In this document: in pieces, positions 3,769-56,157 of the stretch
Position numbering within the stretch: position 1 is the first letter of the stretch
How the letters are laid out: every line of letters begins with the position of its first letter
From: Effusibacillus dendaii
Lineage (GTDB): Bacteria > Bacillota > Bacilli > Tumebacillales > Effusibacillaceae
Direction of reading: 5' to 3'
NCBI RefSeq assembly: GCF_015097055.1
Contig: NZ_AP023366.1
Span: 1,550,001-1,614,000 of the forward strand
DNA length: 64,000 nt
The notes under the pieces: model-generated
The model's database searches: none
Seen by the model: the letters and a program-made list of their open reading frames with translations, nothing else
What the model was told of the DNA's origin: nothing
Position numbers and translations under genes: made by a program

Positions 3769-3911
3769 TCCCCCTCCCGATCCGTATCTTCCCACTCTGC
3801 TTCGTCATCGTCCGCCAAGCCAGGCGAATGCTGCATGACTCCGATCGTCAATGAACTCTGGTTCGTAAGCGAACCGATATGCAGGGTTCCAATCTGGTAT
3901 GTCACATTCAC
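3765..3911 (-). CDS. Small GerPD-like spore protein
   Basis: A 48-residue protein starting at GTG (3911), ten bases after GGAGG. The N-terminal half (IGTLHIGSLTNQSSLTIG) has the hydrophobic-G-hydrophobic / SS-x-x-x-IG pattern shared by GerPB, GerPD and GerPE. The C-terminal half is very acidic. The GTG overlaps the gerPC stop, so it is coupled to gerPC in an hsp20-gerPC-gerPD order. In gerP-containing bacilli these proteins make the coat permeable to germinants. The assignment to GerPD rather than PB or PE rests on position and size. Confidence 0.65.
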   Translation of the reverse strand: MNVTYQIGTLHIGSLTNQSSLTIGVMQHSPGLADDDEAEWEDTDREGD

Positions 3912-4300
3912 AGATGCAATACCTCCAAATAACGCACACGCTGCTCAAACGATTGGAGCTGCGCCTCAATGTCGCGCCAGCGCTGTTCCAAATTTTGCAG
4001 ACTGTCTCTCACCTCCTGCATATTTTGCTCTACCTGCTGGAGGCGTTGCTTGATTGATTTACGGCCTTCCCCGCCACCTCCCGCTTGATCACCGCTTGTT
4101 TGTATGCGAGTATCCATTTCGTCTCCCATATGAACCCCCAAATCCAAAATCCCGTTTTGAATGCTTTCCACTGTCAGATTTTCAATATAATATTCGATCG
4201 AACCGGACTTGCCGGATTGCTGCAATTTTTTTAGTTCCTCTTCGATCGTTTCGAGCCTTTTTTGAAGACTTAGAATTTCTTCGTACCACGCCGGATAGAT
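3908..4300 (-). CDS. gerPC: Spore germination protein GerPC, ATC start
   Basis: About 130 residues: an N-terminal aromatic patch (YPAWYEEIL), a coiled coil (LQKRLETIEEELKKL), a GSIEYYIENLTVESIQNG core and a second coiled coil near the end. This is the GerPC layout; GerPC helps coat permeability to germinants. An in-frame TGA lies three codons before ATC at 4300, and no ATG, GTG or TTG exists before the conserved N-terminus. GGGGTG stands seven bases before the ATC, so initiation at ATC is proposed. The alternative is the TTG at 4225, which would remove the first coiled coil. The gene follows the hsp20 stop by 17 bases. Confidence 0.72.
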   Translation of the reverse strand: MYPAWYEEILSLQKRLETIEEELKKLQQSGKSGSIEYYIENLTVESIQNGILDLGVHMGDEMDTRIQTSGDQAGGGGEGRKSIKQRLQQVEQNMQEVRDSLQNLEQRWRDIEAQLQSFEQRVRYLEVLHL

Positions 4301-4317
4301 GGCCGTTCACCCCCCAT

Positions 4318-4863
4318 CTATTCGAAATCGATCGGAATCGTATTGTCTTTCAAATCGGCATTTTGATCTGTATCTTTGATCATGCGAACTTCCAATATAC
4401 CCTGTCGATAGGCGGCTCTTACTTTGTTCGGAAGTACACGAACGGGCAGCTGAATCTCCCGTTCAAACGAACTTTGCCGTTCCGACATCAAAAATTGGTC
4501 CCGTGCCACCCCGGGATATCGGTTGCCTTGGTTTCCTTTTATATGAAGGCGATTCGATTCCACAGCGATTTTGACATCGGAGCTTTTTTCTATACCGGGC
4601 GCCTCAATTACGGCCACCAATTCGTTTTTGGACTGGTACAGATCGACGCGCGGGTAGCCGGAAGACATCCCGTTAAACATGTTTTGCATCGGAAACCCTG
4701 CATTCGGCATCAGAGGGTTTCCGTCAAACAGGTTGCCAAGATTGGGCATGTTGCCGTTTTGCGAACCCATTACAGTTTTCAGGAAATCCTCGCCGAACAT
4801 TTTTTGGAACTGTTCTCCCAGTTGTCCCAATTGACGCAACGAATCCATCGGATTTGTATTCAT
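4318..4863 (-). CDS. Hsp20/alpha-crystallin family protein
   Basis: A 181-residue small heat-shock-like protein. A long N-terminal arm rich in Met, Gly, Asn and Leu (residues 1-70) precedes an alpha-crystallin domain (about 72-178) with RVDLYQSKNELVAVIEAPG and the terminal strand GILEVRM. Such proteins act as holdases, and several are spore-coat components (CotM-like). The start at 4863 is chosen for GGGAG eight bases upstream. It is the first gene of hsp20-gerPC-gerPD, which argues for a spore-coat rather than a heat-shock role. Confidence 0.85.
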   Translation of the reverse strand: MNTNPMDSLRQLGQLGEQFQKMFGEDFLKTVMGSQNGNMPNLGNLFDGNPLMPNAGFPMQNMFNGMSSGYPRVDLYQSKNELVAVIEAPGIEKSSDVKIAVESNRLHIKGNQGNRYPGVARDQFLMSERQSSFEREIQLPVRVLPNKVRAAYRQGILEVRMIKDTDQNADLKDNTIPIDFE

Positions 4864-4952
4864 AGGCATCACTCCCTGCATTACAGTATGCAGGCGAACA
4901 TCTTGTTGTGATAAATGAATACACTGCAGAAAAACCGAAAGGAGGCGCCTGC

Positions 4953-5357
4953 ATGTTTTTCGCGATTACGCAATTGCTGCATCGTACACGAAACCTGCAG
5001 CGTTGGAATGAGACCGTGATTGCTTCGCTCCCCGCTGTTCCCAAAGAAATTACCGCTTCCAGCACACAGAGGGCAGCGTATTTAAGCGGCCGAAAACGGG
5101 TCTTCACCGATTTTGCCACAGCAGCCTCCAAGCTGGAACATGCGATCCTGCGTTCCGGATTCACTCTTTTTTCGCAACTCTCTTTTGAAGTACGCCATCT
5201 CGAATACCTGACGCTTCATGAAGTAAAGGAACTGTCCGACTATCTGGTTCGGCTGATTCGCCTCTACCCGTCGGTCAAACCCATCTATTCCCGATTGATT
5301 CAGACACTGACCCAGATTGCCGAAGAAATGCATGCTCACAACATAACGACCTCCTAA
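4953..5357 (+). CDS. Hypothetical protein, mostly helical
   Basis: A 134-residue protein of unknown function. AAAGGAGG stands nine bases before the ATG at 4953; an upstream in-frame ATG lacks a ribosome binding site. The sequence is predicted helical, with basic and leucine-rich stretches (ITQLLHRTRNLQRWNETV; LTHEVKEL-like segments) and no signal peptide or motif I recognise. It is transcribed divergently from the hsp20-gerPC operon, so a spore role is possible but not shown. Confidence 0.7.
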   Translation: MFFAITQLLHRTRNLQRWNETVIASLPAVPKEITASSTQRAAYLSGRKRVFTDFATAASKLEHAILRSGFTLFSQLSFEVRHLEYLTLHEVKELSDYLVRLIRLYPSVKPIYSRLIQTLTQIAEEMHAHNITTS

Positions 5358-5372
5358 TCAGGAGGCCGTCTG

Positions 5373-5591
5373 TCAAACGCGCGATTTTTTGATTTTGGAA
5401 AAGAATCCATTTACAAACAGCATCAGCAGAATATAGATGATCAGAAACGCAACCACCCATGGGGTATACAACCCAAACAGACCGGCCGTTCCGACGCCTC
5501 CTGAAAGAAACAGCATGAGAAGAACGAAAATAACCAAAAATACAATCATCCAACGCGCCAAATTAGAGAATCGCTGCGCCCGGTTCTTCAT
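5373..5591 (-). CDS. Small two-helix membrane protein
   Basis: A 72-residue protein with two hydrophobic helices (about 13-31 and 42-62) and basic ends (MKNRAQR..., FFSKIKKSR). AGAGGAGGAGGG precedes the ATG. The WxVxFLIIxxLLMLF pattern resembles the YjcZ-type spore peptides at 7478 and 8925 but doubled, so it may be a distant relative. No function can be assigned. Confidence 0.72.
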   Translation of the reverse strand: MKNRAQRFSNLARWMIVFLVIFVLLMLFLSGGVGTAGLFGLYTPWVVAFLIIYILLMLFVNGFFSKIKKSRV

Positions 5592-5770
5592 TCGCCCTCC
5601 TCCTCTTGATATGGACTTTTCCCCTCTGTCATCGTCCCTGTTATTGCTTCACTTTATGTTCCCGTTCCCGAAATCGAAACGGCGGTAAAGCGGAAAACAG
5701 GGATTCGTGGAATTCTCCCTCATCGCATATAGTAAGTAAACGAAGTTCTGCGATGGAAAAGAGGGATGTG

Positions 5771-6004
5771 ATGGCATACGATGATCCGTTTTACACCCTG
5801 CTTCCCGCACCACCATTAGGAAAATTTGATCCCTGCTACCAAACCTGGAAAAACACCTGCCGTTTGGCCTGGGAACGGGCAATGGTATGTCGAATGTACG
5901 GAGACGATTCACCCTCCTGCCAGGCCGCACAAGAACGCTATTTTGAAGCTGCCCGTCGGTATTCCGCTTGTTTGGACGACACATGGGGCCAAAACGAATT
6001 CTAA
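5771..6004 (+). CDS. Hypothetical cysteine-containing small protein
   Basis: A 77-residue protein with four cysteines (DPCYQTWKNTC, MVCRM, PSCQAA plus one near the end) and an aromatic-rich N-terminus. The start at 5771 follows GAGGG; an earlier in-frame ATG at 5753 is possible. It is unrecognised. Its place between spore genes and its Cys/aromatic composition would suit a coat or crust protein, which is inference only. Its 3' end overlaps that of gerPB by four bases on the other strand. Confidence 0.6.
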   Translation: MAYDDPFYTLLPAPPLGKFDPCYQTWKNTCRLAWERAMVCRMYGDDSPSCQAAQERYFEAARRYSACLDDTWGQNEF

Positions 6005-6306
6005 AAAACAGGTCCCGATGCAGGTGGAGAGGTAAAAAAGTTTCCGTTTGGCGGCGTTTCTTCCGTTGCCATTCCTTCCGGAACCTGTACGATCACATCG
6101 GCTGGAGAAGGAGCGGTTGGAACAGGCCCCTCAACCGCAGGCAAAGTCGGCACAACTGGCGCAGGCAGCACGGGAGGCGCCTCCGTAATATCATACGATT
6201 CGGCATACATTCGAATCAGTCCGCTGCTTCCGATTTGTACAACAGATGCGGTCCCAACCGTATTAATTGTCAAATGACCGATATGAATGTTCTGAACGAT
6301 TTTCAT
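6001..6306 (-). CDS. gerPB: Spore germination protein GerPB
   Basis: A 101-residue protein. The N-terminal 35 residues (QNIHIGHLTINTVGTASVVQIGSSG) match the GerPB signature of paired I-x-I-x-x-L/V strands followed by S-x-V-x-Q-I-G-S. The remainder is a Pro/Ala/Val-rich tail of a kind seen in other GerPB proteins. It lies 12 bases downstream of gerPA, as in the canonical gerPA-gerPB order. Role: a coat protein that helps germinants cross the coat (established for the B. cereus and B. subtilis gerP operons). Confidence 0.82.
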   Translation of the reverse strand: MKIVQNIHIGHLTINTVGTASVVQIGSSGLIRMYAESYDITEAPPVLPAPVVPTLPAVEGPVPTAPSPADVIVQVPEGMATEETPPNGNFFTSPPASGPVF

Positions 6307-6318
6307 TTCATTCCCTCA

Positions 6319-6537
6319 CTACAAACCGGCCACATTGGCATCCACCAAATCCTGGTCGTTCGTGTTCGTGGAACTGACCACATTGTACGTGGACGGAAAA
6401 TCCCCCGTGTTAAACGAACCGGAACCGGCATACGTTTTAGACGCCGCTTTTGGCGCTATGATGAGAACATCTCCTACATGAACCACACCGCTGCTCCCCA
6501 CGCTGATCACTTTTAGGGCGCCAAGGATTGCTGGCAT
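6319..6537 (-). CDS. gerPA: Spore germination protein GerPA/GerPF family
   Basis: A 72-residue protein with the family signature: MPAILG start, GVVHVGD (residues 17-23), IAPK, then SKTYAGSGSFNTGD and a C-terminal STNTNDQDLVD. Length and motifs are those of GerPA/GerPF. It is named gerPA because gerPB follows directly. CAAGGAGG precedes the start. It is divergent from the gerPF-like gene at 6660 and shares a 122-base promoter region with it. Confidence 0.85.
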   Translation of the reverse strand: MPAILGALKVISVGSSGVVHVGDVLIIAPKAASKTYAGSGSFNTGDFPSTYNVVSSTNTNDQDLVDANVAGL

Positions 6538-6602
6538 TTAAATTCCTCCTTGGGGCTCAATCGTGTTTTTATTCTAGTGTACGTAACAGTCTCCGCTTTT
6601 GT

Positions 6603-6630
6603 ACCGATTGGCAAGCGATTTCATATGATA
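6603..6630 (+). promoter_or_regulatory. Candidate sigma-K promoter for gerPF-gerPE-gerPD
   Basis: ACC at 6603-6605 (-35 core AC) is followed by CATATGATA at 6622-6630, which fits the sigma-K -10 consensus CATAnnnTA at normal spacing. gerP operons in Bacillus are transcribed late in the mother cell under sigma-K, so the match is biologically sensible. The CATATG is palindromic and may also serve the divergent gerPA gene. Confidence 0.55.
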
Positions 6631-6659
6631 AACCAAAAAACGAAAGGCGGAATATATCC

Positions 6660-6881
6660 ATGCCAGCACTTCTAGGCGGAATTCGCATCATAACCGTTTC
6701 CACTGCGGGAGTATTTCAGGTAGGAGATACGGCTGTCATTGCCCCCAAAGAAACGGGGAAACTGTATACCGGTTCGGGTACCTTCTCAACCGGTGATGGA
6801 GCGAGCACATTCACATTGTTCAGCAACACCAACACAAACGACCCTGACTTTGTCGATACGGATGTTTGGGGAGTGAAATAA
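6660..6881 (+). CDS. gerPF: Spore germination protein GerPF/GerPA family
   Basis: A 73-residue paralogue of the gerPA gene across the divergent promoter: MPALLGG start, GVFQVGD, IAPKETGKLYTGSGTFSTGD, SNTNTNDPDFVD. It starts eight or so bases after AAAGGCGGAA. It is the first gene of a three-gene unit with gerPE and a gerPD-like gene that overlap or nearly touch. The exact PA/PF naming is by position. Confidence 0.84.
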   Translation: MPALLGGIRIITVSTAGVFQVGDTAVIAPKETGKLYTGSGTFSTGDGASTFTLFSNTNTNDPDFVDTDVWGVK

Positions 6882-6886
6882 AAAAG

Positions 6887-7201
6887 ATGCCGCTTTTAAG
6901 AGACCGTCCAAAGATTACTCAAGTGCAGGGAATGAAAGTGACGCTGATTTTGCTGTCAGGAGTACTGCAAGTGGGAGACACCCGACTCGTGGAACCGTTT
7001 TATCAATCTTTCACTGCCGGGGGATCGCGCGGTGCAGCCAGTTTTATCACGCGTGCCCGTCACATCCATTCCGCCACCCGACTTCACTATAACAACCAGA
7101 CGGATCATCAAATTTCGGATGATAATCTGCTGAACGATCAATGGTATGACCAGATTTTAAAAGAGATCGAAGAGGAGAGCAAAAATGGCCGTCCAGATTA
7201 A
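6887..7201 (+). CDS. gerPE: Spore germination protein GerPE
   Basis: A 104-residue protein with a GerPE-like core (VTLILLSGVLQVGDTRLVEP), then a basic and polar C-terminus containing His/Asn-rich stretches. It lies five bases after gerPF; its end overlaps the next gene by 17 bases. ATG 6887 is used; a TTG at 6866 overlapping gerPF is an alternative because the ATG has only a distant GGGGAG. Part of the coat-permeability GerP set. Confidence 0.75.
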   Translation: MPLLRDRPKITQVQGMKVTLILLSGVLQVGDTRLVEPFYQSFTAGGSRGAASFITRARHIHSATRLHYNNQTDHQISDDNLLNDQWYDQILKEIEEESKNGRPD

Positions 7202-7385
7202 CATGCAGGTACAAAACGGCGACATTCAAGTCGGTTATATCAAAATAAACGCGGTTTCCAACTCGGCGGTTGTCATATTAGGCGATGCCGAGACAATCAC
7301 CCCCACCGCCATTGCTACTTCTCGCGGCGTTATAGGGCCGCTTTTGGCTCCAGTCGTGGCTCCTGGCGGCGGCCCTGTCGGGTAA
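7185..7385 (+). CDS. GerPB/GerPD-like spore germination protein
   Basis: A 66-residue protein with IQVGYIKINAVSNSAVVILGDAE near the N-terminus, matching the GerPD/GerPB pattern (xIGxIxIxxxSxSSVxxIGD), then a Gly/Pro/Val tail (VAPGGGPVG). AGAGGAG precedes the ATG and lies within the end of gerPE, so translation is coupled. With the gene at 3765-3911 the window holds two GerPD-type proteins. Confidence 0.75.
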   Translation: MAVQINMQVQNGDIQVGYIKINAVSNSAVVILGDAETITPTAIATSRGVIGPLLAPVVAPGGGPVG

Positions 7386-7477
7386 ATAGGTTGTTCCACA
7401 AAAATAGACAGATGTCCGTTTCTTCTCCTCCACCCTGCGCATTTACTGAAGTGAACAATCACAAAGGAGGAATTTTC

Positions 7478-7603
7478 ATGGACGGATACGGGGTTTTCGG
7501 AGGCTATACCCGGTGGGCAGTCGTGTTCTTGATTATCTTTGTACTGTTTATTCTGCTGGTACCGACCACTACCACCGTTTGCACGACGCAACCGGTTTAC
7601 TGA
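7478..7603 (+). CDS. YjcZ-family sporulation peptide
   Basis: A 41-residue peptide: a Gly/Tyr N-terminus (YGVFGGY), one hydrophobic helix WAVVFLIIFVLFILLV, and a Thr-rich end with one Cys. This is the YjcZ/SpoVM-like small membrane peptide family of spore formers. AAAGGAGG stands eight bases before the ATG. A close paralogue lies at 8797-8925 on the other strand. Location downstream of gerP genes supports a spore role. Confidence 0.85.
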   Translation: MDGYGVFGGYTRWAVVFLIIFVLFILLVPTTTTVCTTQPVY

Positions 7604-7666
7604 GAGCAAAATTTCACATGCGCCAGAGATCCGTTGATGCGGGTCTCTATTTGTATAAAAAGCAAA

Positions 7667-7693
7667 CCCGGTTAATCAAAACCGGGCCTTTTT
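7667..7693. terminator. Bidirectional terminator
   Basis: CCCGGTT-AATCAA-AACCGGG (7667-7686) is followed by CCTTTTTC on the plus strand and by TTTGCTTTTTA on the minus strand. It separates the YjcZ gene from the convergent GerP-like gene. Confidence 0.8.
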
Positions 7694-7704
7694 CTCATAT
7701 GGGG

Positions 7705-7941
7705 TTACACTTGCAGACTGCTAAAATTATTGTTGTCAAAACTTAAAGTATCAATCGCATCCAAATCCATAATGAAATAGGTGATGACCGGCAGACATAC
7801 GATACTGTCCGCGTAAACAGTATTTCCATTGTTCAATTTAGATTTGTTGGTGTTTTGGACAATATTGACGCCCAGTGCGATGGACGCGCCTTGTGCCACA
7901 GTGTTGGATGTGAGGAACCCTAACCAAATTCCGACCGCCAT
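7705..7941 (-). CDS. Divergent GerP-like spore protein, family member A
   Basis: A 78-residue protein of a five-member family in this window. Shared features are a hydrophobic N-terminus, G-x-N-[IV]-x-x-N (here GVNIVQN), then S-K-x-N-x-G, and a C-terminal N/D-x-D-x-x-D... FD-x-N-x-F block. GerPA/GerPF proteins share the order GD...SK...G...TN-x-D-x-D-x-x-D, so distant relationship is inferred. Two GGAGG blocks precede the ATG. It is convergent with the gerPF unit. Function is unknown; spore coat is the best guess. Confidence 0.72.
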   Translation of the reverse strand: MAVGIWLGFLTSNTVAQGASIALGVNIVQNTNKSKLNNGNTVYADSIVCLPVITYFIMDLDAIDTLSFDNNNFSSLQV

Positions 7942-8043
7942 GGCGATCCTCCTTGTACCCTTTGATTACCCTTGTCCTCCTGTAAGGTTTGGTGTATGGA
8001 TATTCGTTAATTCGATAAGTCTGTATACACGTTTACATGATTG

Positions 8044-8280
8044 TTAAAACGGCCCCAGTAAGAAATTATCCATCTGAAACGCAGGCGTATCCACCCAGTC
8101 AGGGTCGAAATTTGCCTTGACAATGCCGGGCATCCATGCGATCTTGCCGTTTGTACAGAGGGTCCCTTCGTTTATCTTGCGAATCGAACTGTTCGTTACA
8201 AAATTAACCCCTGTAGCAACCGTGGCATCTTGCGAACAGCGGTTGACCATAATCCCGCCGATTCGAACCCTTACATCCAT
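8044..8280 (-). CDS. Divergent GerP-like spore protein, family member D
   Basis: A 78-residue member of the same family: GVNFVTNSS, then RKINEG, and the C-terminal ANFDPDWVDTPAFQMDNF. AAAGGGGAG stands seven bases before ATG 8280. It lies upstream of member A on the same strand and divergent to member E, so A, D and E form a cluster beside the gerP genes. It has two cysteines, unlike members B and C. Confidence 0.7.
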   Translation of the reverse strand: MDVRVRIGGIMVNRCSQDATVATGVNFVTNSSIRKINEGTLCTNGKIAWMPGIVKANFDPDWVDTPAFQMDNFLLGPF

Positions 8281-8426
8281 TCCAGATCTCCCCTTTCACC
8301 ATTCCCCATATTGTATACTTCAATCGGCGGTTCTGTGTCGGTGAACCGATTGACGGACTCCCACATAGAATGACATGAGCCTATATCGAAACGAACGGAT
8401 CACATTCATGGGGAGGAGGTTGTCGG

Positions 8427-8672
8427 ATGAACGTATCGATCACGATCAATATCGGAACGATCAAAGTGATCTCGATGACAACGGCAAGTACCATTGCGAT
8501 CGGCAAAAGCGGCGTCTCCAACCGCAACAACAGCAAATCAAACACTGGGCCGACAACAACAACAGACGGTAATGTATATATGCCAGTCGGAACGCAAGTC
8601 AATTATGATCCGGATCACATGGACACTCCCGAATGGGGAGGAGACAACATTGTTAACGCTTCGGCACTTTAG
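8427..8672 (+). CDS. Divergent GerP-like spore protein, family member E
   Basis: An 81-residue protein that bridges the two groups. Its N-terminus (INIGTIKVISMTTASTIAIGKSG) is GerP-like, while NNSKSNTG and NYDPDHMDTPEWGGDN match the divergent family. GGGGAGGAGG precedes the ATG at 8427. It is divergent from member D and convergent with the YjcZ gene at 8797, with a shared terminator between them. Confidence 0.74.
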   Translation: MNVSITINIGTIKVISMTTASTIAIGKSGVSNRNNSKSNTGPTTTTDGNVYMPVGTQVNYDPDHMDTPEWGGDNIVNASAL

Positions 8673-8754
8673 ATAAACGGACATTTCACACTCGGTTTAC
8701 GAGCAGCGAATATGTAAGACAAACTTTTCCCATAGTCAGAGCAGCCTCATATAA

Positions 8755-8788
8755 GGCAAAAGACCGAAGATGTCTTCGGCCTTTTGCA
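8755..8788. terminator. Bidirectional terminator
   Basis: A near-perfect long stem: GCAAAAG-A-CCGAAGA, loop TG, TCTTCGG-C-CTTTTGC (8756-8787). It provides T-tracts in both directions between member E and the convergent YjcZ gene. Confidence 0.85.
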
Positions 8789-14344: not shown

Positions 14345-14676
14345 TTATACATTTGTATTTTTATGGCTCCCACCGGTTTGGTCAGCTTTAACTTTGCAGT
14401 CGTCAATCACCCGTTTTGGAATTATTTTTAAAGCGAACATGATACTTAACGGTACAATAATTGCATTATTCAGGGACCCCAAACGGGAATAAAGTCGGGA
14501 ATCAAATCAATCGGACTAAACGCATAAGCGACAACACAGACAGCGAAAAATTTTGCAAACCAAGGTGTGCGATTATCCTTATAAGCCAAATAAAGTACAA
14601 AAAGTTTCCTTTCTAACTGTTTCGCCCACGCCTTTAATTTACCAAACAAGAATTCCCCCACTCCTTGTATAGACAA
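14345..14676 (-). pseudogene. ykvA: YkvA/DUF1232 membrane protein, frameshifted
   Basis: The first 68 codons give a helical N-terminus and the DUF1232 signature AYAFSPIDLIPDFIPV, then stop prematurely at 14470. In another frame the family continues at once with NNAIIVPLSIMFALKIIPK and ends at 14345. One missing base in the TTTGGGG stretch (about 14483-14489) explains the break; restoring it would give VLGSLNNAIIVPL. The reading N-terminus is also odd: TTG 14676 abuts GGGGTGA, while ATA 14670 is seven bases after GGGGTG. A sequencing error in the homopolymer is possible. Confidence 0.8.
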
Positions 14677-37269: not shown

Positions 37270-38091
37270 TTAGAATCCATTTGTCCGAAAACGATTAAGG
37301 AACATCTGCAGCCGGGGACTTTTCGGATTTTCAAAAATCTGTTTGGGGGAGCCCTCCTCAACAATTTTGCCGCCGTCCGTAAACAAAATACGATCTGCCA
37401 CATCACGCGCAAACTCCATTTCGTGTGTAATCAACAGCATCGCCATATCGCCTTCCGCCGCAATTTCTTTGATCACTGTCAACACCTCCCCAACCAATTC
37501 GGGATCCAAGGCAGATGTCGGTTCATCAAACAGCATCACTTTCGGCCGCATGACCAATGCTCTCGCAATCGCCACACGCTGTTTTTGACCACCCGACAGT
37601 TGGCCCGGATATTTGTCCAACTTATCCAACAGCCCGACTTTATCCAACATGATCTTGGCTCTCTCCACCGCCTCCTCTTTTGACAGACCGAGCACCCGAA
37701 TGGGCGCTTCCGTCACGTTGCGCAAAATGGTCATATGCGGAAACAGGTTAAAATGTTGAAACACCATGCCAATGCTGCCTCGCACACGATGCAGATGTTT
37801 TTCGTCCGCCCGCGTCAGTCTGCCTTTTACTCTCTTGTGCCACAGCAGTTCTCCATCCACTTCAATCGTGCCGGCCGTCGGTTCTTCCAGCGTCATCAGC
37901 AAACGGGCGAGTGTTGTTTTGCCGGATCCGCTCGGACCGATCACCGCCACCTTTTCCCCCGGATAGATATCCAGATCGATTTCCTTTAGTACCTGCAGAT
38001 CGCCATATGATTTGCTGATTTTCCGATAGCGGACAATCGGATTTCCCTCCACATTCTCATATCCCTCGTACAAACTGGACACATGGATCAT
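37270..38091 (-). CDS. ehuA: Ectoine/hydroxyectoine ABC transporter ATPase
   Basis: A 273-residue polar-amino-acid type ATPase. Walker A GPSGSGKTT, Q-loop QHFNLFPH, signature LSGGQKQR, Walker B VMLFDEPTSALD and the H-loop ITHEM are all intact. The start at 38091 gives normal spacing from GGGAGG; an ATG two codons earlier abuts it. It pairs with permeases EhuC and EhuD. Specificity for ectoines is inferred from the ect genes in the same operon and from the EhuBCDA gene set. Confidence 0.92.
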   Translation of the reverse strand: MIHVSSLYEGYENVEGNPIVRYRKISKSYGDLQVLKEIDLDIYPGEKVAVIGPSGSGKTTLARLLMTLEEPTAGTIEVDGELLWHKRVKGRLTRADEKHLHRVRGSIGMVFQHFNLFPHMTILRNVTEAPIRVLGLSKEEAVERAKIMLDKVGLLDKLDKYPGQLSGGQKQRVAIARALVMRPKVMLFDEPTSALDPELVGEVLTVIKEIAAEGDMAMLLITHEMEFARDVADRILFTDGGKIVEEGSPKQIFENPKSPRLQMFLNRFRTNGF

Positions 38092-38114
38092 GCTCATCCT
38101 CCCACTTCCTTTGC

Positions 38115-38765
38115 TTATTTTTGTTCAAGCCTCAATTCCATTCGGCGAACCCAAATGGCAGACAGATAACTTAACAGCAGGAACAGGAATCCGGCAATCG
38201 TGAACGCCTCCAGATAGCGAAACGACTGGGAACCGATCATTTTAGCGGTTTGCATCAGTTCTACTACCGTAATCGTAGAAAGAAGCGGCGTTTCTTTAAA
38301 CATCGTGATCAGGTAATTGCCCAAAACCGGCACAACTGGCCGAATGGCCTGCGGTAAAATAATCCGCATCCATGTCTGTGATCTGGAAAAGTTCAACGCA
38401 ATCGCCGCTTCCCATTGTCCGCGCGGCACATTTTCAATGCCGGCCCGGTACACTTCGGACAAATAGGTGCTGTAATGCAGACCCAATCCAATCACGCCCA
38501 CTGTGAAGGCGGGTAACGAAATACCGTAAAACGGAAGCGCGAAATATAAGAAATACAATTGAATCAAAAGCGGCGTGCTGCGGATAAACTCGACCACCAA
38601 ACCAGACGCCCATGCAATCGGCTTTCGCTTTGACCGGCGGCCAAAAGCCAACAGCATCCCTAACAAAGCGGCCAGTACGAAACCTGATAATGTGGCCTCA
38701 ATGGTCACATCAACCACTTTCAACAACTTCGGCAAAATCGAATATGCAAACTCCCAATCCCACAT
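38115..38765 (-). CDS. ehuD: Ectoine/hydroxyectoine ABC permease EhuD
   Basis: A 216-residue HisM-type permease with about five helices. The N-terminal segment is YSILPKLLKVVDVTIEATLSG, the FIRSTPLLIQLYFLYFALP motif is present, and the EAA loop is GQWEAAIALNFSRSQTWMRIILPQA. Partner of EhuC in the membrane. Its start lies three bases from the ehuC stop. Confidence 0.92.
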   Translation of the reverse strand: MWDWEFAYSILPKLLKVVDVTIEATLSGFVLAALLGMLLAFGRRSKRKPIAWASGLVVEFIRSTPLLIQLYFLYFALPFYGISLPAFTVGVIGLGLHYSTYLSEVYRAGIENVPRGQWEAAIALNFSRSQTWMRIILPQAIRPVVPVLGNYLITMFKETPLLSTITVVELMQTAKMIGSQSFRYLEAFTIAGFLFLLLSYLSAIWVRRMELRLEQK

Positions 38766-38768
38766 CTT

Positions 38769-39416
38769 TTACACCCTCCCTGCGGAAACTCTCCGTTCCA
38801 ACCAACGCACAACAAGAGTCAGGGAGTACGCAAGAACAAAGTAAATGACAAGAATAAGCCCCAATATCTCCGGCGTTCTGGCAATGTTTGCGGTTCGCAT
38901 CAGCATACCGGTAAACGTCAAATCGGATAATGTGATCAGCGAAACAAGCGATGTGCCTTTTAAAAGTTCAATCAACAGATTTCCGAAAGCGGGCAGCATC
39001 AGAGTAAACGCTTGCGGGAGGATCACGCTCCGCATCCGCTGAAACGAGGTCAGGTTCAACGCGATTGCAGCTTCCGTCTGCCCTTTTGGAATCGCCTGAA
39101 TCGAACTACGGACAATCTCCGAACCGTAAGCGCCATAGTTCAGTCCTAACGCCAGAACACCTGTTGTCATCGGCTCCAGTTCAATTCCCAATATTGGCAA
39201 AGCGAAAAACAGCCAAAACATTTGCACCAGCAATGAAGTACCCCGAAAAAATTCCACATATACGGCTGCAGCCATTCGCACCCATGCCCATTTTGACAAA
39301 CGACACAACCCAGCGGTGAATGAAAGGAGCAAAGCTGCAACCGCAGAACAGGCCATTACTTGCAGAGTCACTTCTACCCCGTGCAGAAGGGGTGTAAACA
39401 GGTCAGTCGGAAAAAT
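38769..39416 (-). CDS. ehuC: Ectoine/hydroxyectoine ABC permease EhuC, ATT start
   Basis: A HisM-type permease of 215 residues if started at ATT 39416. The N-terminus FPTDLFTPLLHGVEVTLQVM aligns with the EhuD N-terminus, and the EAA loop is GQTEAAIALNLTSFQRMRSVILPQA. The first standard start in frame is GTG 39371, which would cut off the periplasmic start of helix 1. ATT stands seven bases after GGGGTG and 18 bases after the ehuB stop, so initiation at ATT is preferred. CTG 39401 is a less likely alternative. Confidence 0.85.
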   Translation of the reverse strand: MFPTDLFTPLLHGVEVTLQVMACSAVAALLLSFTAGLCRLSKWAWVRMAAAVYVEFFRGTSLLVQMFWLFFALPILGIELEPMTTGVLALGLNYGAYGSEIVRSSIQAIPKGQTEAAIALNLTSFQRMRSVILPQAFTLMLPAFGNLLIELLKGTSLVSLITLSDLTFTGMLMRTANIARTPEILGLILVIYFVLAYSLTLVVRWLERRVSAGRV

Positions 39417-39434
39417 GGTTCTGCACCCCTTTCC

Positions 39435-40340
39435 TTATTTCAATAATTCTTCTGCCGTTTTACCGCCCGGCAGTTCCTGCTTGGTAAATCCGAACGGGCT
39501 TAGAATGTTCAGAAGTTCGCCTGAATCCTCCAGTTTTTTCAATTCCTCGTTATACGCTTGCCGGAAATCATCGTCCCCTTGGCGGAAAACGGCAGCCCCA
39601 TAACCGCGTATACTTTTACCATCGATCACCGGCTGTTCGAAATCCATGACCCTCTCAATCGAAGGATCTTTCGCTGAATCCATCACTGCCTGCAAAGAAG
39701 GACCGGTCATTGTAATGGCGTTTACACGTCCGGCCTGCAGAGCGTTGATGGCAGAAGGCTGATCGGATACAATCACGATTTGGCTATCCGACACCCCGCT
39801 CTTTTTCAGATAATCGATCTCGATGGCGCCCCCCATTACACCAACTTTCACTTCTGAATTGGCGGCAATATCCTTATAACTGTGAAGATTCATCGGATTC
39901 CCCTTCTTAACGGCAATCGCTTCCCCAATACTGTATTCAGGATTGGCAAAATCGACCTGCTTCGCCCGCTCCGGCGTAATATACATACCCGCCGTAATGA
40001 TGTCGAAACGTTTTGCTTTCAGCCCCGGAATCAACGACCCGAATTCGGTCAATACACCGTTTACTTCTTTGATCCCAAGGTTTTTCAGAACGGCGCGCGC
40101 GACCTCAACCGCTTCACCTGTCAATTTGCCGTCCGGGGCCGCATAGGCGTATGGTTTTTCGTTGGCAAAACCGACTGTCACATACCCCTGCCGTTTTGCT
40201 TTTTCAAACGCAGTTTCCTGTTTGCCGGAATCTTGCGCCGACCCGCTTGTGCTGCCGCCGCATCCTGCCAATAAAAGCCCGGCAGCCAGAACACCGGTCA
40301 ACATCGCAGCCCATTTTGATTGCAAAGTTTTGCTTTTCAT
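39435..40340 (-). CDS. ehuB: Ectoine/hydroxyectoine substrate-binding lipoprotein
   Basis: A 301-residue solute-binding protein. The signal peptide ends in the lipobox LLAGCGG (Cys about residue 27). The mature part is a family 3 polar amino-acid binding fold: YVTVGFANEKPYAYA, GEAVEVARAVLKNLG, LIPGLKAKRFDIITAGMYITPER. This EKPYAY signature is typical of EhuB. The start at 40340 follows AAAGGAG. First gene of the ehuBCDA-ectABCD unit; the c-di-AMP riboswitch and a terminator lie upstream. Confidence 0.94.
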   Translation of the reverse strand: MKSKTLQSKWAAMLTGVLAAGLLLAGCGGSTSGSAQDSGKQETAFEKAKRQGYVTVGFANEKPYAYAAPDGKLTGEAVEVARAVLKNLGIKEVNGVLTEFGSLIPGLKAKRFDIITAGMYITPERAKQVDFANPEYSIGEAIAVKKGNPMNLHSYKDIAANSEVKVGVMGGAIEIDYLKKSGVSDSQIVIVSDQPSAINALQAGRVNAITMTGPSLQAVMDSAKDPSIERVMDFEQPVIDGKSIRGYGAAVFRQGDDDFRQAYNEELKKLEDSGELLNILSPFGFTKQELPGGKTAEELLK

Positions 40341-40387
40341 TTCATTTCTCCTTTCTGATCTCATCTCGCACATCCAGGCCATGCAAC

Positions 40388-50841: not shown

Positions 50842-51672
50842 CTATCGAATACCCGTCGCATCTGCCTGCTGCAAAATGTGAATCAACGGACTGTGAATTT
50901 TCCCATTGCTGGCTGCAATATGCCGCACGTGCAGCGTGTAGGGTTCACCTTCCGTATCGGTCACCATGCCGCCTGCTTCCTGTACCAGCAGACTGCCTGC
51001 CGCCAAATCCCAGGCGTTCAGGTCAATCTCCCAAAATCCGCTTAATCGCCCGGATGCCACATACGCCAGGTGCAATGCGGCAGAACCGGCCGCCCGTATG
51101 TTTCGACAGACCGGACTTAACGCGTTGATTCCTCTTAGATTGACAGCCCGTGCCCACTGTTTGTCACCTGGAAATCCAGTCGCCAACAAGCTCACATCAA
51201 GCGTTTCTTCATCAGAAACAGCAATCGGTTCACCGTTCAACGTCGCACCGCCGTTTCGTTTGGCCGAAAACATTTCATCCCGGAACGGATCATAAATCAC
51301 CCCGGCGATCACTTCTTCTTTATGAACCAGAGCGATTGATACCGTGCAGACGGGAAATCCGTGCACAAAATTGGTTGTTCCATCAATCGGATCGACAATC
51401 CAGAGATATTCGGCAGATAGAGATTTCGAAAGCGCTTCCGCCGATGCTTGCGAACCGGGTGCCACACCTTCCTCGCCAAGAATTTTATGTTCCGGAAAAG
51501 CGGCCAGCAGCTCCGTACGGATCACCGCTTCCGATTGCTTGTCCACTTCTGTGACCAGATCAACATTCGACGTTTTCTCACCGACTACTGTCGCTTTTCC
51601 AATTTTATCAAGGATCAAATTTCCAGCCTCGCGGGCGGCCTGCTCCGCTACGGCGACAAACCGGTCATACAT
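50842..51672 (-). CDS. suhB: Inositol monophosphatase family protein
   Basis: A 276-residue Mg-dependent phosphatase. Motifs: DLVTEVDKQSE, GEEG, WIVDPIDGTTNFVHGFP (metal site) and the late WDLAAGSLLVQEAGG. It dephosphorylates inositol monophosphate or related sugar phosphates or pAp. The name suhB is a family label. GGAGGCTGGAAGCG precedes the ATG. The phosphotyrosine phosphatase gene lies 13 bases upstream on the same strand. Confidence 0.9.
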   Translation of the reverse strand: MYDRFVAVAEQAAREAGNLILDKIGKATVVGEKTSNVDLVTEVDKQSEAVIRTELLAAFPEHKILGEEGVAPGSQASAEALSKSLSAEYLWIVDPIDGTTNFVHGFPVCTVSIALVHKEEVIAGVIYDPFRDEMFSAKRNGGATLNGEPIAVSDEETLDVSLLATGFPGDKQWARAVNLRGINALSPVCRNIRAAGSAALHLAYVASGRLSGFWEIDLNAWDLAAGSLLVQEAGGMVTDTEGEPYTLHVRHIAASNGKIHSPLIHILQQADATGIR

Positions 51673-51685
51673 CGCTTCCAGCCTC

Positions 51686-52198
51686 CTAATTCTGCCTGTC
51701 GATTCGCAGTCCGTGCCGGTCTATTAGCATATGCAGCAGCTTCCGACAAGAACGCTCGATGATCATATACGTTTCTTCAAACGCGTCATCACCCAAACTC
51801 CACGGATCCGGCACATCAAAATCGGACTCTTCCGTCCGCAGCTCTGGGTCAAACTCACGCAGCAACAGCAGTTTCGCTGTTCCCTTGCCCAGCCGTTCTA
51901 TGTTGCGGCGGTTCGATCGATCCATCGCAATGACATAATCAAATTCTTCCAAATCTTTACTGCTGATTTGGCGTGCCCGTTGATCGTCAATCGAATAACC
52001 CCTTCGCTGTGCCGCCCGCCGCGATCCGGGATCGGGCAGACTGCCCGTATGATACCCGGCTGTTCCGGCTGAATCGACTACAAAACGGTCTTCCAGTCCC
52101 TGCTCCCGAATCAACTGTTTAAAAATCCCTTCCCCTAACGGAGAGCGGCAGATGTTTCCTAAACAGACAAACAGAATACGTATTGGGGATTTGTTCAT
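51686..52198 (-). CDS. Low-molecular-weight protein tyrosine phosphatase
   Basis: A 170-residue phosphatase. The P-loop VCLGNICRSP (C-x5-R-S) is at residues 11-20 and the acid Asp lies in VPDPWSLGDD. It dephosphorylates protein tyrosine or arginine residues; YwlE-type protein-arginine phosphatases share this fold and cannot be excluded. GGAGTTGAACGTATA precedes the ATG. Probably co-transcribed with suhB. Confidence 0.9.
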   Translation of the reverse strand: MNKSPIRILFVCLGNICRSPLGEGIFKQLIREQGLEDRFVVDSAGTAGYHTGSLPDPGSRRAAQRRGYSIDDQRARQISSKDLEEFDYVIAMDRSNRRNIERLGKGTAKLLLLREFDPELRTEESDFDVPDPWSLGDDAFEETYMIIERSCRKLLHMLIDRHGLRIDRQN

Positions 52199-52331
52199 TA
52201 TACGTTCAACTCCCAGATTATTCCAAACAAACCATTACTCTTATTATACACAACAAAACCGTCTTTTCGGAGTAATAAAGTTTGCAGTTTGCGAATTTTA
52301 TGCTAATGTTCTGTACGAGGAGGTTACGTAC

Positions 52332-53060
52332 ATGAAACAAAAGACCGTATGGTTCACAACAATTTCTGCTTTACTTGGTATTACCCTGCTCGTCGGGTGC
52401 GGTACTCAAAATCAGAACACCGGGACACCTGACCAAAACAAACAGAACACATCCCAATCGGACCCAAACAACCAAACGAATACGCAGCAAGGACAAGCTC
52501 CCAACCAAACGGCGCCGACGGCTAACAAAAATAACAAGTACAAAGAAGCGCCCAAAATGACAATCGATCCAAAGAAGTCGTATACGGCTACAGTGAAGAC
52601 AACAAAAGGGGATTTCCAGATCCAATTATACGCCAATGAAACACCTGTTACCGTGAACAATTTTGTGTTTTTGGCACGTGACCATTTTTATGACGGAATT
52701 CGTTTTCACCGTATTGTAAAGACCTTCATGATCCAAACAGGCGACCCTCTGGGAACCGGAACCGGCGGACCGGGTTATGAGTTCAATGATGAACTGCCGC
52801 CCAAACACCCCTACGAACCGGGTGTTGTGGCCATGGCAAACGCAGGTCCCAATACAAACGGCAGCCAGTTCTTTATCGGCACTGGCGATGATGTTAAAAG
52901 CCTGAACCAATCGCCTAATTACACCGTATTTGGAAAAGTGATCTCTGGAATGGACGTGGTACAGAAAATCGCTTCTGTTCCGGTCGGCGTGAAAAACGGA
53001 GAAATGAGCGACCCGAGAGAAGAAGTGACAATTCAATCGATCCAGATCGAAGAAAAATAA
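52332..53060 (+). CDS. Peptidyl-prolyl isomerase lipoprotein (cyclophilin)
   Basis: A 242-residue secreted cyclophilin. The signal peptide ends in the lipobox LLVGCG; a Gln/Asn/Thr-rich linker (about 22-72) follows; then a short cyclophilin domain with FYDGIRFHRIVKTFMIQTGD, GVVAMANAGPNTNGSQFFI and YTVFGKVISGMDVVQKI. It helps fold proteins outside the membrane. GGAGG is ten bases before ATG 52332; upstream in-frame ATGs lie in the divergent promoter. Confidence 0.93.
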   Translation: MKQKTVWFTTISALLGITLLVGCGTQNQNTGTPDQNKQNTSQSDPNNQTNTQQGQAPNQTAPTANKNNKYKEAPKMTIDPKKSYTATVKTTKGDFQIQLYANETPVTVNNFVFLARDHFYDGIRFHRIVKTFMIQTGDPLGTGTGGPGYEFNDELPPKHPYEPGVVAMANAGPNTNGSQFFIGTGDDVKSLNQSPNYTVFGKVISGMDVVQKIASVPVGVKNGEMSDPREEVTIQSIQIEEK

Positions 53061-53092
53061 CTTTCTGCAATCGAGAAGATTCTGCAACCCCA

Positions 53093-53130
53093 AAAACGCT
53101 GCTTTGCAACAGGGCAAAGCAGCGTTTTTT
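53093..53130. terminator. Terminator of the cyclophilin gene
   Basis: AAAAACGCTGCTTTGC-AACAG-GGCAAAGCAGCGTTTTTT, a long perfect stem with T-tracts on both strands; it also faces the convergent mini-flagellin gene. Confidence 0.93.
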
Positions 53131-53141
53131 CGATTCTTACC

Positions 53142-53504
53142 TTAAAATAAGGAGACCGATTTTGCAAAATCGTTTTTATAATCGGTAGTTTTCCGCATGG
53201 CAGGATACCCAAAACCGTTTGAACCTTTTGAATCACCCGTTGTTTGCAGCAATTCCTTAATGTAATCTCGATTGTAATGCAGTTCATTCGAGAACAACTG
53301 GTTCACATTCGATAAGAGGAGCTTCGTTTTCACAAATTCAACCGCCATTCGGGCCATATCCACATCTTCTATGCGAGATACGGCAGGATCGTCAGCAGCG
53401 GACAAAATTCGTTTTCCCGTAGCCAGAGAAGCGAATTGCTGGTTTTGCGCAGCAAACAGTCTACTCCAATTTCTATAGAAAAAACTTCCATCTTGAATTC
53501 TCAC
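53142..53504 (-). CDS. Mini-flagellin: flagellin ends without a centre
   Basis: A 120-residue protein. The N-terminal part (MRIQDGSFFYRNW, then QQFASLATGKRILSAADDPA) matches the D0/D1 start of flagellin and FlgL. It is followed at once by VSRIEDVDMARMAVEFVKTK and LLLSNVNQLFSNELHYNRDY, the flagellin C-terminal D0 helix. The usual 150 or more central residues are absent. A polar tail ends it. The start is GTG 53504, five bases after GGGG. It could cap, regulate or be a relic; no other flagellar gene is nearby. Confidence 0.7.
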   Translation of the reverse strand: MRIQDGSFFYRNWSRLFAAQNQQFASLATGKRILSAADDPAVSRIEDVDMARMAVEFVKTKLLLSNVNQLFSNELHYNRDYIKELLQTTGDSKGSNGFGYPAMRKTTDYKNDFAKSVSLF

Positions 53505-53509
53505 AGGTT

Positions 53510-53554
53510 CCCCAACCCCCAAAATACATCCCCAAAATACTTTCCCCAAAGTAC
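53510..53554 (-). repeat. G-rich tandem repeat before the mini-flagellin
   Basis: On the minus strand three copies of GTAYTTTGGGG at about 14-base spacing, then GTTGGGG, lie directly before the GTG start. The four G-runs could form a G-quadruplex or offer several ribosome binding sites. Copy number could vary. Confidence 0.7.
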
Positions 53555-53615
53555 TTCTCACAAAAAAAGCTTATTAAATTCTTCCCACAATATCCTTGAA
53601 TTTTCTAATAAATTC

Positions 53616-53644
53616 AAAAAAAAAAAAAAATGCAAGTCCCCCCC
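53616..53644. repeat. Homopolymer pair A15 and C7
   Basis: A run of 15 A (53616-53630) and a run of seven C (53638-53644) lie upstream of the mini-flagellin gene. On its strand they read as G7 and T15, positions where slippage would change promoter spacing. Confidence 0.75.
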
Positions 53645-53705
53645 AAAACACCTCTTACAAAAATTGTAAGCCGATATCATTTACTGACGACAAATAATCT
53701 ATATG

Positions 53706-53737
53706 AAAAAAACGACCCTACCTGGTTTGGTAGGATC
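53706..53737 (-). terminator. Terminator of the fadR-etfBA operon
   Basis: On the minus strand GATCCTACC-AAACCA-GGTAGGGTC followed by GTTTTTTT, 22 bases after the etfA stop. Confidence 0.93.
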
Positions 53738-53758
53738 GCGTTCGTACTATGAATCGGA

Positions 53759-54739
53759 TTACTCCGCCAATACTTTCTTCAACTCTTCCGTCAGTACCGG
53801 TACAACTTCAAACAGATCGCCAACGATTCCGTAATCCGCCACTTTGAAAATCGGCGCTTCCGGATCCTTGTTGATCGCTACAATTACTTTCGAGTTGGAC
53901 ATACCAGCCAAGTGTTGAATTGCGCCAGAAATACCGCAAGCAATGTACAAGTCAGGTGTTACAACTTTACCGGTTTGACCAATCTGCAGCGCGTAATCGC
54001 AGTAACCGGCATCACATGCACCGCGCGAAGCCCCAACAGCCGCCCCCAATGTATCTGCCAATTCCTGCAGCGGTTTGAATCCATCCGCACTTTTTACACC
54101 GCGACCGCCGGAGACAATAATTTTGGCTTCCGAAAGGTCGACGCCACCGGTCGTTTTCTTGACCACTTCTTTAATGAAGGAACGAAGCGAGTCAGCCGGA
54201 ATATCCACCGATACATTGACTACGTTCGCACTGCGTCCCGCCCCCGGCTCGGACGCCGGCAGGTTGTTCGGACGAATTGTCGCAAACACAACTCCCTCGT
54301 TAATCACATTTTTAGTAAACGCTTTACCGGCATAGATCGGACGAGTGAACACCAGTTTTCCGCCCTCGATCTGTACATCGATAATGTCGGATACTTGAGC
54401 AGCTTCCAGCCTTGCTGCCACTTTCGGCGCCAAATCACGTCCAATTGCCGAATGAGCGAGGAATACCACATCCGGGTTGGATTCTTTAATTACCGTTTCC
54501 AGCGCTTTGGCATAAGCATCGGGCACATAGTTGCCAAGCGCTTCGTTTTCCACTACAAACACTTTGTCTGCTCCGTATTGAGCCAAAGAATCAGCCGCAC
54601 CGCTGACGTTTTTACCAAGCAATGCACCGTACACTTCGCCGCCTTCCGAAATCTTGCGAGCGGCGCTAAGCGCTTCAAACGTTACATTGCGGACCTTATC
54701 GTGTCTGATATCTGCAAGTACAAGTACTTTCCGTGCCAT
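53759..54739 (-). CDS. etfA: Electron transfer flavoprotein alpha subunit
   Basis: A 326-residue EtfA that holds FAD and takes electrons from acyl-CoA dehydrogenases. The FAD-binding C-terminal part shows SGGRGVKSADGF, LGAAVGASRGACDAGY, IGQTGKVVTPDLYIACGISGAIQHLAGM and INKDPEAPIFKVADYGIVGD (each typical). It follows etfB by 34 bases. Confidence 0.96.
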   Translation of the reverse strand: MARKVLVLADIRHDKVRNVTFEALSAARKISEGGEVYGALLGKNVSGAADSLAQYGADKVFVVENEALGNYVPDAYAKALETVIKESNPDVVFLAHSAIGRDLAPKVAARLEAAQVSDIIDVQIEGGKLVFTRPIYAGKAFTKNVINEGVVFATIRPNNLPASEPGAGRSANVVNVSVDIPADSLRSFIKEVVKKTTGGVDLSEAKIIVSGGRGVKSADGFKPLQELADTLGAAVGASRGACDAGYCDYALQIGQTGKVVTPDLYIACGISGAIQHLAGMSNSKVIVAINKDPEAPIFKVADYGIVGDLFEVVPVLTEELKKVLAE

Positions 54740-54773
54740 TGAGTTCGTCCCCTTTTCTCCCCGGTCGGGTTTA

Positions 54774-55532
54774 TTAGATTACTTTATCATTCGAGCGAAG
54801 CGCTGAAATCAGTTCTTTTACGCGGTCGACAGTTTCCCCTTCAAGAATGCGTCCGCCCGTTTTTTCCTTCGGCAAGAACGTTTCTACAATTTCACTCTTG
54901 GCATTGGCGGAAACGTTGAGATCAGCAGCCGTTACCACATTCAACGGGATTTTGTTTGCTTTGCGAATTCCCAGCAAAGACGGATAACGCGGTTCATTCA
55001 GGCCTTGCTGCGCCGTGAATACGGCAGGCAAAGTGGTCTCTACAATTTCCTGATCGCCTTCCGCATCACGATGAGCGGTTACTTTGGTGCCATCGATTTC
55101 GATTTTTACTACAGTCGAGACATGCGGAATGCCAAGCAGTTCAGCCACACGAACGGCAACCTGACCGGAACCGTCATCAACTGCCTGTACACCCCCGAGA
55201 ATAATGTCGTATGGCTTGGTTTTGATATATTCAGCCAGCGTTTTGGCGACTTTATATTCGTCTCCGAACAGCGCCGGATCGTTAATGTGCACGCCGTGAT
55301 CAGCCCCCATCGCGAGCGCCTTCCGCAAAGCCTCTTCCGCCCGATCGGGACCGACTGTAATGACAGTCACTTCCCCGCCAAAGTTGTCGCGCATCACAAG
55401 CGCTTCTTCAATCGCATACTCATCGTACGGGTTAATAATGTACTGCACGCCGTCCTCTTTGATTTTTCCGCCGTCGAGAACAATTTTCTCTTCGGTGTCG
55501 AACGTTTGCTTCATCAGTACCAAAATGTTCAT
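54774..55532 (-). CDS. etfB: Electron transfer flavoprotein beta subunit
   Basis: A 252-residue EtfB, partner of EtfA and binding AMP. Motifs: MNILVLMKQTFDTEEKI, NPYDEYAIEEALVM, VGPDRAEEALRKALAMGAD and the recognition loop EPRYPSLLGIRKANK. GAGAGGGGATTCC precedes the ATG. It lies 37 bases after fadR, the same order as in B. subtilis except that fadB is absent here. Confidence 0.96.
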   Translation of the reverse strand: MNILVLMKQTFDTEEKIVLDGGKIKEDGVQYIINPYDEYAIEEALVMRDNFGGEVTVITVGPDRAEEALRKALAMGADHGVHINDPALFGDEYKVAKTLAEYIKTKPYDIILGGVQAVDDGSGQVAVRVAELLGIPHVSTVVKIEIDGTKVTAHRDAEGDQEIVETTLPAVFTAQQGLNEPRYPSLLGIRKANKIPLNVVTAADLNVSANAKSEIVETFLPKEKTGGRILEGETVDRVKELISALRSNDKVI

Positions 55533-55569
55533 TTTGGAATCCCCTCTCTTGAAAATTAAACTGCCGACG

Positions 55570-56157
55570 CTACTTTTTCATCGCATGCACCAGCAGGTCC
55601 ACAACCGGTTCAATCAATCCCTGCAAGTCGTACTTCGCTCCTGTCAGCACCCAGGCGGTGATCGTTTCATCCATGGTACCAAAAATCATTCTCCGCGCGA
55701 TCCGATGATCGATGGTCGGGCGGAAGATGCCTTTGTCGATCCCGTCTTGAATAATATGGTCAATCAGTTGGTAATAAGGACGGATGATGTCCCCAATCTG
55801 TCGCCTCATCGCCTGGTCCGCTTGCCGCAGATGAATCTGCGTGACCGCTGCCAAACTTTTGTTATGAGCAAGCCCTTCAAAGTAAACCGTTACCAAATGA
55901 TGCAGTTTGCGGATAGGGTCGGTTTCCGTTTGGAATCTGGCTTCGATTTCCGTCCGTATACGGCCAATCGCTTCACTTAATATGGATATCAGAACGTCTT
56001 CCTTATTCTTGAAGTACAGGTAAACCGTTCCGTCCGCTACACCCGCTTCCCGTGCAATTCGAGAAATTGGCGCATTGTGGTAACCAGCCTGCCCGATTAC
56101 ATTAATGGCCGCAGCAAGAATTGCCTCATACTTATCCGGGTCTTTTTTTTGAGCGAT
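55570..56157 (-). CDS. fadR: TetR-family fatty-acid regulator FadR, ATC start
   Basis: A TetR repressor of 195 residues. The helix-turn-helix is ISRIAREAGVADGTVYLYFKNKED, preceded by KYEAILAAAINVIGQAGYHN. The C-terminal ligand domain runs to HAMKK. Acyl-CoA would release it from DNA. Upstream of the conserved N-terminus an in-frame TGA is met (GGGTGACCC) and no ATG, GTG or TTG exists until codon 88. ATC 56157 lies seven bases after GGGGTG (ATT 56160 four bases), so non-standard initiation is proposed. A perfect TGAATGATCATTCA operator lies just upstream. Confidence 0.88.
   Translation of the reverse strand: MAQKKDPDKYEAILAAAINVIGQAGYHNAPISRIAREAGVADGTVYLYFKNKEDVLISILSEAIGRIRTEIEARFQTETDPIRKLHHLVTVYFEGLAHNKSLAAVTQIHLRQADQAMRRQIGDIIRPYYQLIDHIIQDGIDKGIFRPTIDHRIARRMIFGTMDETITAWVLTGAKYDLQGLIEPVVDLLVHAMKK

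Follow-up and report, generated by a model that had tools for sequence, protein, structure and literature searches.

A conserved AUC start codon is likely for fadR in two groups of Bacilli

Introduction

Can an intact bacterial gene open at AUC or AUU, and would such a start belong to a few particular genes or betray a general laxity in start-codon choice? The question arose from a window of 64,000 nucleotides, the whole stretch of DNA analyzed here (C1 1550001-1614000), in a genome consisting of a single contig of 3,454,394 bases. The window has a G+C content of 48.4%, as obtained from base counts; this value, together with the presence of Tumebacillus avium in the same order, points to Effusibacillus and perhaps to E. 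dendaii (48.2 mol%; PMC8502169). A preliminary description of it had listed four genes in which GGGGTG is followed, seven bases on, by an ATH codon (ATA, ATC or ATT; AUH in the mRNA), and had proposed that start selection is relaxed genome-wide, for example through an altered IF3 or 16S rRNA.

Rare start codons have precedents, for which we draw on the accessible text of three papers. Initiation at codons other than ATG, GTG and TTG is repressed by IF3, and infC and sigR (GTC) are under IF3 control of this type; the sigR GTC is found in 32 of 34 Streptomyces, the other two having GTT (PMC5472188). In S. aureus, infC, cvfC1, ccpN and citZ start with AUA or AUU, and extended Shine-Dalgarno sequences (SDs) are tied to the first three of these (PMC13009471). 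The corresponding S. aureus reporters yielded approximately 10% of the AUG level in poor medium, and in rich medium ccpN reached as much as 30% (PMC13009471). In Listeria, fixed non-canonical starts were described for 6 of 2,265 core genes, including infC (ATT) and rnhC (ATC) (PMC13068326).

Results

Three genes of the window follow the shared motif

On the minus strand, GGGGTG-N7-ATC/ATT was confirmed 5' of fadR (56170..56155), a gerPC-like gene (4313..4298) and ehuC (39429..39414). At all three sites the SD is good and the frame lacks a canonical start on its upstream side; the next ATG, GTG or TTG lies 87 codons downstream in fadR, 25 in the gerPC-like gene and 15 in ehuC. We take GGGGTG to be an ordinary extended SD, namely GAGGTG with one G-U pair. 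In GGGGTGA of fadR and of the gerPC-like gene, the last three bases form a stop in frame with the ATC, from which two codons separate it, and in this genome the ATH is the sole plausible in-frame start of both genes; the case for ehuC is weaker. The fourth site of the preliminary description, an ATA at 14670 before a ykvA/DUF1232 remnant, did not hold up. Canonical codons surround this ATA at positions -2, +3 and +7, and since the TTG at +7 (14649) comes after AAGGAG, the remnant is read from that TTG (14470..14649, minus strand) and an ATA start is unnecessary.

The fadR gene (55570..56157, minus strand) comprises 195 codons from the ATC at 56155..56157, plus a stop. Its product, a TetR-family regulator of fatty-acid metabolism, matched the FadR equivalog model NCBIfam NF053878 from residue 8 with 257.9 bits (cut-off 200) and contains Pfam TetR_N at residues 13-57; this equivalog score, together with the TetR_N and YsiA C-terminal domains, identifies it as a Bacillus-type FadR. 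The SD, GGGGTGA (56164..56170), includes the TGA stop and has a predicted duplex energy of -14.3 kcal/mol. On its 5' side lies a palindrome, TGAATGATCATTCATT (56181..56196), which resembles the FadR operator consensus and may be a FadR operator. Two genes follow fadR on the same strand: an etfB-like gene (54774..55532; Pfam ETF), which NCBIfam ETF beta models match with scores below their cut-offs, and 3' of it an etfA-like gene (53759..54739; Pfam ETF and ETF_alpha), whose NCBIfam match is likewise below cut-offs.

The probable AUH start codon of fadR is shared by 37 genomes

We compared the aligned first codon of fadR among relatives. The order, which comprises Tumebacillus and this genome, was sampled with 14 genomes, two of which (G005 and G006) had no fadR match at 1e-30; the remaining 12 of 12 carry ATC. 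In the family of Alicyclobacillus pomorum, FadR was matched at 1e-25 in 34 of 41 genomes, and 24 of the 30 fadR loci examined have ATH at this position (23 ATC, 1 ATT). One further metagenome-assembled genome (MAG) also has ATC. Pooled as distinct genomes, with named duplicates excluded, these amount to 37 genomes from two groups of Bacilli, with 36 ATC and 1 ATT at one position. Five other loci (L178, L181, L210, L219 and L241) have ATH at the first column and a canonical codon two codons on, and were counted as canonical.

If the start had been misassigned, another canonical codon would be used and the ATC would be internal or untranslated. At least one in-frame canonical codon does occur upstream of the ATH in 23 of the 37 genomes, each with a weaker SD, and in two of them (G002 and G008, with SDs of -13.8 and -8.9, respectively) an ATG lies immediately 5' of the ATC. 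An ATG precedes the ATC by two codons in six loci of the Alicyclobacillus family (L359, L370, L372 and L374-L376) and by three in L174, so that the ATH is less certain to be the only start in the 8-9 of 37 relatives with a close upstream ATG. In seven genomes of the order (L045-L051) an ATG farther upstream falls within a TGAATG...TCATTCA stretch that likewise resembles the FadR operator consensus. Against misassignment, in 14 of the 37, the window's genome included, the frame contains no canonical codon from the preceding stop to the ATH. The first canonical codon downstream is 13-20 codons away (87 in the window's fadR), within TetR_N or beyond, and its use would truncate the DNA-binding domain. 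Moreover, the codon preceding the ATC varies, while the ATC itself hardly does. We therefore consider a misassigned start improbable, and a real, gene-specific AUC start of fadR very likely.

The constancy of the codon exceeds that of isoleucine codons elsewhere in the gene. Among the other Ile codons of 19 of these fadR genes, 224 of 376 are ATC, as against 36 of 37 in the start column; a naive binomial calculation, which ignores relatedness, gave 1e-7 (n=37) and 7e-4 (n=19) for the excess, and related species are not independent observations. Where an internal column has Ile in 17 or more of the 19 genes, no more than 14 of the codons are ATC, compared to 18 of 19 in column 1. The SDs are also stronger, with a median duplex of -11.5 kcal/mol (n=37) versus -8.0 in 82 further fadR loci that start canonically (ATG 53, TTG 22, GTG 7); in these the calculation used whichever canonical codon close to the start was best.

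In a tree of 64 FadR sequences, built without the first 8 residues, the 37 AUH-started genes form one clade (support 100/98); an earlier tree with 65 rows had likewise placed 19 of 19 AUH genes together (100/100). Outside this clade is a divergent FadR, 43-45% identical, in six Alicyclobacillus-family genomes examined (L377-L382), which has an ATG a few codons upstream, after a GAGGTGA SD. This ATG type may be either a replacement or a separate lineage. A single start-codon switch in fadR, in whichever direction, is the simplest history, and its spread among the relatives makes the ATC an old feature of the gene. Thus the position of the fadR start, its one-clade depth of 37 genomes and its stronger SDs are each supported at the level of sequence.

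The gerPC-like gene and ehuC

The gerPC-like gene (3908..4300, minus strand; 130 codons from the ATC at 4298-4300) has the strongest SD of the three, GGGGTG at 4308..4313 with a duplex of -15.2 kcal/mol. Its three congeneric orthologs, 56-60% identical, have ATC at the same position, so that the codon is ATC in 4 of 4 members of the genus; the G002 ortholog has an in-frame GTG inside the SD. At the corresponding position the more distant gene of G007 (34% identical) carries an ATG preceded by AGGAGG. A search of eight genomes (six Alicyclobacillus, the L174 MAG and Tumebacillus avium) returned one weak partial match only. The name itself is weakly supported, as PF10737 scored 18.5 bits against a cut-off of 22.4, while the G001 ortholog scored 22.6. 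A gene for an HSP20-domain protein (4318-4881, minus strand) lies directly 5' of the gerPC-like gene.

Sequencing error or a fresh mutation, with ATG really present at these sites, would be another explanation of the rare codons, but nothing was found in its favor. As other genomes share the codon in both fadR and the gerPC-like gene, this explanation is practically refuted for both.

The ectoine ABC permease gene ehuC (38769..39416, minus strand) has 215 codons from the ATT at 39414-39416, which is preceded by the SD GGGGTG at 39424..39429 (-9.6 kcal/mol). Six codons, none of them canonical, separate the ATT from an in-frame TAA on its 5' side, and EhuC matched NCBIfam TIGR03004 with 254.1 bits, above the equivalog cut-off, from residue 5 at profile position 2. 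The ATT is present in one genome, and a GTG 15 codons downstream has an SD of -6.4. No close ortholog was found in the congeners, where the best E values were 1e-26 to 1e-28; G006 and G007 gave 1e-75 to 1e-79, and these closest orthologs have canonical codons near the start, so conservation of the ATH start in relatives was not found. We regard ehuC as plausible and as the weakest of the three cases. Both it and the gerPC-like gene start 17-18 bases past the stop of the upstream gene, and because of this proximity translational coupling may help both. The gene is part of a consecutive ehuB-ehuC-ehuD-ehuA set for ectoine uptake (37270-40382, minus strand). Since the closest EhuC among the 31 genomes searched belongs to G006 and G007 and not to the congeners, gain or loss of ehu is suggested.

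AUH starts are rare in the genome as a whole

The preliminary description had attributed the sites to relaxed start-codon selection across the genome, at a rate far above that known. We conducted a census of the window and 72 stretches of 20 kb, totaling 1,504,000 bases (12,500 of them N) or 43.5% of the genome, which contained 1,127 coding frames, 52 of them in the window. Its thresholds were a coding score of at least 8, an SD of -8 kcal/mol or stronger and a first canonical codon at least 10 codons downstream, the last two being chosen after a looser pass. Six ATH sites emerged: fadR, the gerPC-like gene, ehuC, infC, ccpN and what is left of a decayed manA gene. The census thus recovered infC and ccpN unprompted. 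The five intact genes represent 0.44% of the 1,127 frames (95% interval 0.14-1.03%), a lower bound because the census misses genes with a near canonical codon. When 18 other codons were put through the same census, two hits clear of the ATH sites were obtained, CTG (L297) and ACT (L296); the remaining hits were neighboring codons of the ATH sites.

The SD duplexes of fadR (-14.3), the gerPC-like gene (-15.2) and infC (-14.1 kcal/mol) are stronger than the 5% quantile of the 1,127 frames (-13.2), and those of ehuC (-9.6) and ccpN (-10.4) are about the median (-10.0).

The sixth site belongs to a decayed mannose-6-phosphate isomerase gene, manA (56572-56886, minus strand), upstream of fadR, whose first piece of 104 codons retains an SD and an ATC close to the expected start. 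It was left out of the five as a decayed gene whose counterparts are mostly canonical: of 17 other manA loci, 14 have a canonical codon no more than 5 codons 5' of the aligned start and in one the nearest is 22 codons away on that side, while masked sequence covers the region in another and the last was unaligned.

Pattern searches gave a similar picture. GGGGTG-N7-ATH occurs at 54 sites genome-wide versus 29 for the reversed pattern, an imprecise control because its codons differ; of the 54, just four (fadR, the gerPC-like gene, ehuC and infC) head frames with a positive coding score and no adjacent canonical alternative. For GRGGTGA-N6-ATH the corresponding count is 3 of 27 sites (fadR, the gerPC-like gene and infC). 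A 461-codon frame (L111/L257) with GGGGTG-N7-ATT was rejected on account of an ATG immediately before the ATT. Enrichment of the bare DNA pattern was discarded as evidence, as GGGGTG-N5-9-ATH has 7 matches in the window against 7.85 expected by chance. An SD-anchored trinucleotide census of 464 kb, which has low power, revealed no clear excess of ATH.

The clustering of the genes is what speaks for relaxed selection: three lie in one 64-kb window, giving 3 of 52 frames there versus 2 of 1,075 elsewhere (Fisher p 0.0009), but the window had been selected for them. The overall rate of 5 in 1,127 does not differ from the 6 in 2,265 core genes given for Listeria in the accessible text of PMC13068326 (p 0.52). 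An altered translation apparatus is not indicated by the sequences either. An exact pattern search, which altered copies would escape, yielded seven 16S 3' ends, all of them GGCTGGATCACCTCCTT and normal. The one infC found is intact, an open frame of 174 codons that is 85-91% identical to those of three congeners and starts with GGGGTGA-CTCACT-ATT. Together with retention of the fadR start across relatives, these observations make genome-wide relaxation very improbable. What stands of the preliminary reading is an AUH start in fadR and the gerPC-like gene, by conservation, with ehuC as a plausible addition.

ccpN shares the rare start

The ccpN gene of this genome starts with ATC after AAGGTGGTG (L288:680-1318, minus strand, equivalent to G000:C1:1150680-1151318) and has no in-frame canonical codon upstream. 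At the aligned codon, 19 genomes with an N-terminus, this one included, have ATC (17), ATA (1) or ATG (1). In the other genomes, 17 ATH-type ccpN genes have an in-frame canonical codon upstream, mostly a GTG inside a GGTGGTG SD, and their ATH start therefore rests on the published case, namely the non-canonical ccpN starts of S. aureus (AUA) and B. subtilis (accessible text of PMC13009471).

Discussion

The members of the FadR and CcpN families are transcriptional repressors of metabolism. We propose that translation of fadR probably begins at AUC after a good, often extended SD, and that the gerPC-like gene (AUC) and ehuC (AUU), for which the evidence is thinner, are read in the same manner. 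The rare codon, placed at a short and suitable distance past the SD, would make a gene-specific weak start and not reflect general laxity. IF3 would reject AUH in the P site, so that few initiation complexes would survive, and a strong SD would offset part of the loss. FadR would thereby be kept low and would probably be sensitive to IF3 and to initiation capacity. The weak start might perhaps be compounded by autorepression, with FadR acting at the operator-like palindrome next to the SD.

From precedent we infer the functional part of this proposal, that is, actual initiation at the ATC, its control by IF3, its low yield and its purpose, as well as autorepression. One parallel is ccpN, which also encodes a metabolic repressor and has an extended SD and an AUH start (accessible text of PMC13009471), although it belongs to another protein family and has another regulon. 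Given the CcpN precedent, and as FadR is also a metabolic repressor, we read the fadR AUC as selected, low-yield and probably IF3-sensitive. The infC gene resembles fadR and the gerPC-like gene in that its SD overlaps an in-frame TGA that is followed by six bases and then AUH; however, IF3 regulates itself, whereas FadR is not a translation factor and would close no direct feedback loop. Streptomyces sigR shares with fadR a regulatory product, a rare start, an extended SD and conservation in many species, but its codon is GTC instead of AUC, and the IF3 effect that is experimental for sigR is inferred for fadR (accessible text of PMC5472188). In Listeria, too, each genome has a few genes whose non-canonical start is fixed; the main text of that paper contains no mention of FadR or CcpN (PMC13068326).

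The rare start might instead simply lower FadR output without making it respond to the level of IF3. Weaker starts are indeed common in fadR, since 22 TTG and 7 GTG were counted among the 82 other loci. Yet ATC, rather than TTG or GTG, is nearly fixed (36 of 37 genomes), and AUH is among the codons repressed by IF3 according to the accessible text of PMC5472188. We give the output-only explanation an appreciable but lesser probability; if the AUC start is real, comparison with the known cases makes IF3 sensitivity of fadR somewhat the likelier outcome.

Our literature searches, with most subscription journals outside their coverage, gave no account of fadR starting at a codon other than AUG among the papers listed. 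The kind of start is already known; fadR as the gene, and the depth of its conservation, appear to be new. Gene finders, which usually admit only ATG, GTG and TTG, would be expected to deprive fadR of these genomes of part of its DNA-binding domain or to make it look broken, and a simple screen for coding frames whose sole start is an AUH after a strong SD suggests itself. That AUC has been kept across two groups of Bacilli suggests selection on weak initiation itself. Tentatively, and with considerable doubt, infC and the AUH-started repressors ccpN and fadR may make up a set of genes under IF3 control in the Alicyclobacillus family and in the order of Tumebacillus and this genome, kept since a single switch in the fadR ancestor. 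Such a set would tie the breakdown of carbon sources and fatty acids to the cell's capacity for initiation. With both fadR and ccpN in hand, a metabolic regulon sensitive to IF3 becomes a testable idea.
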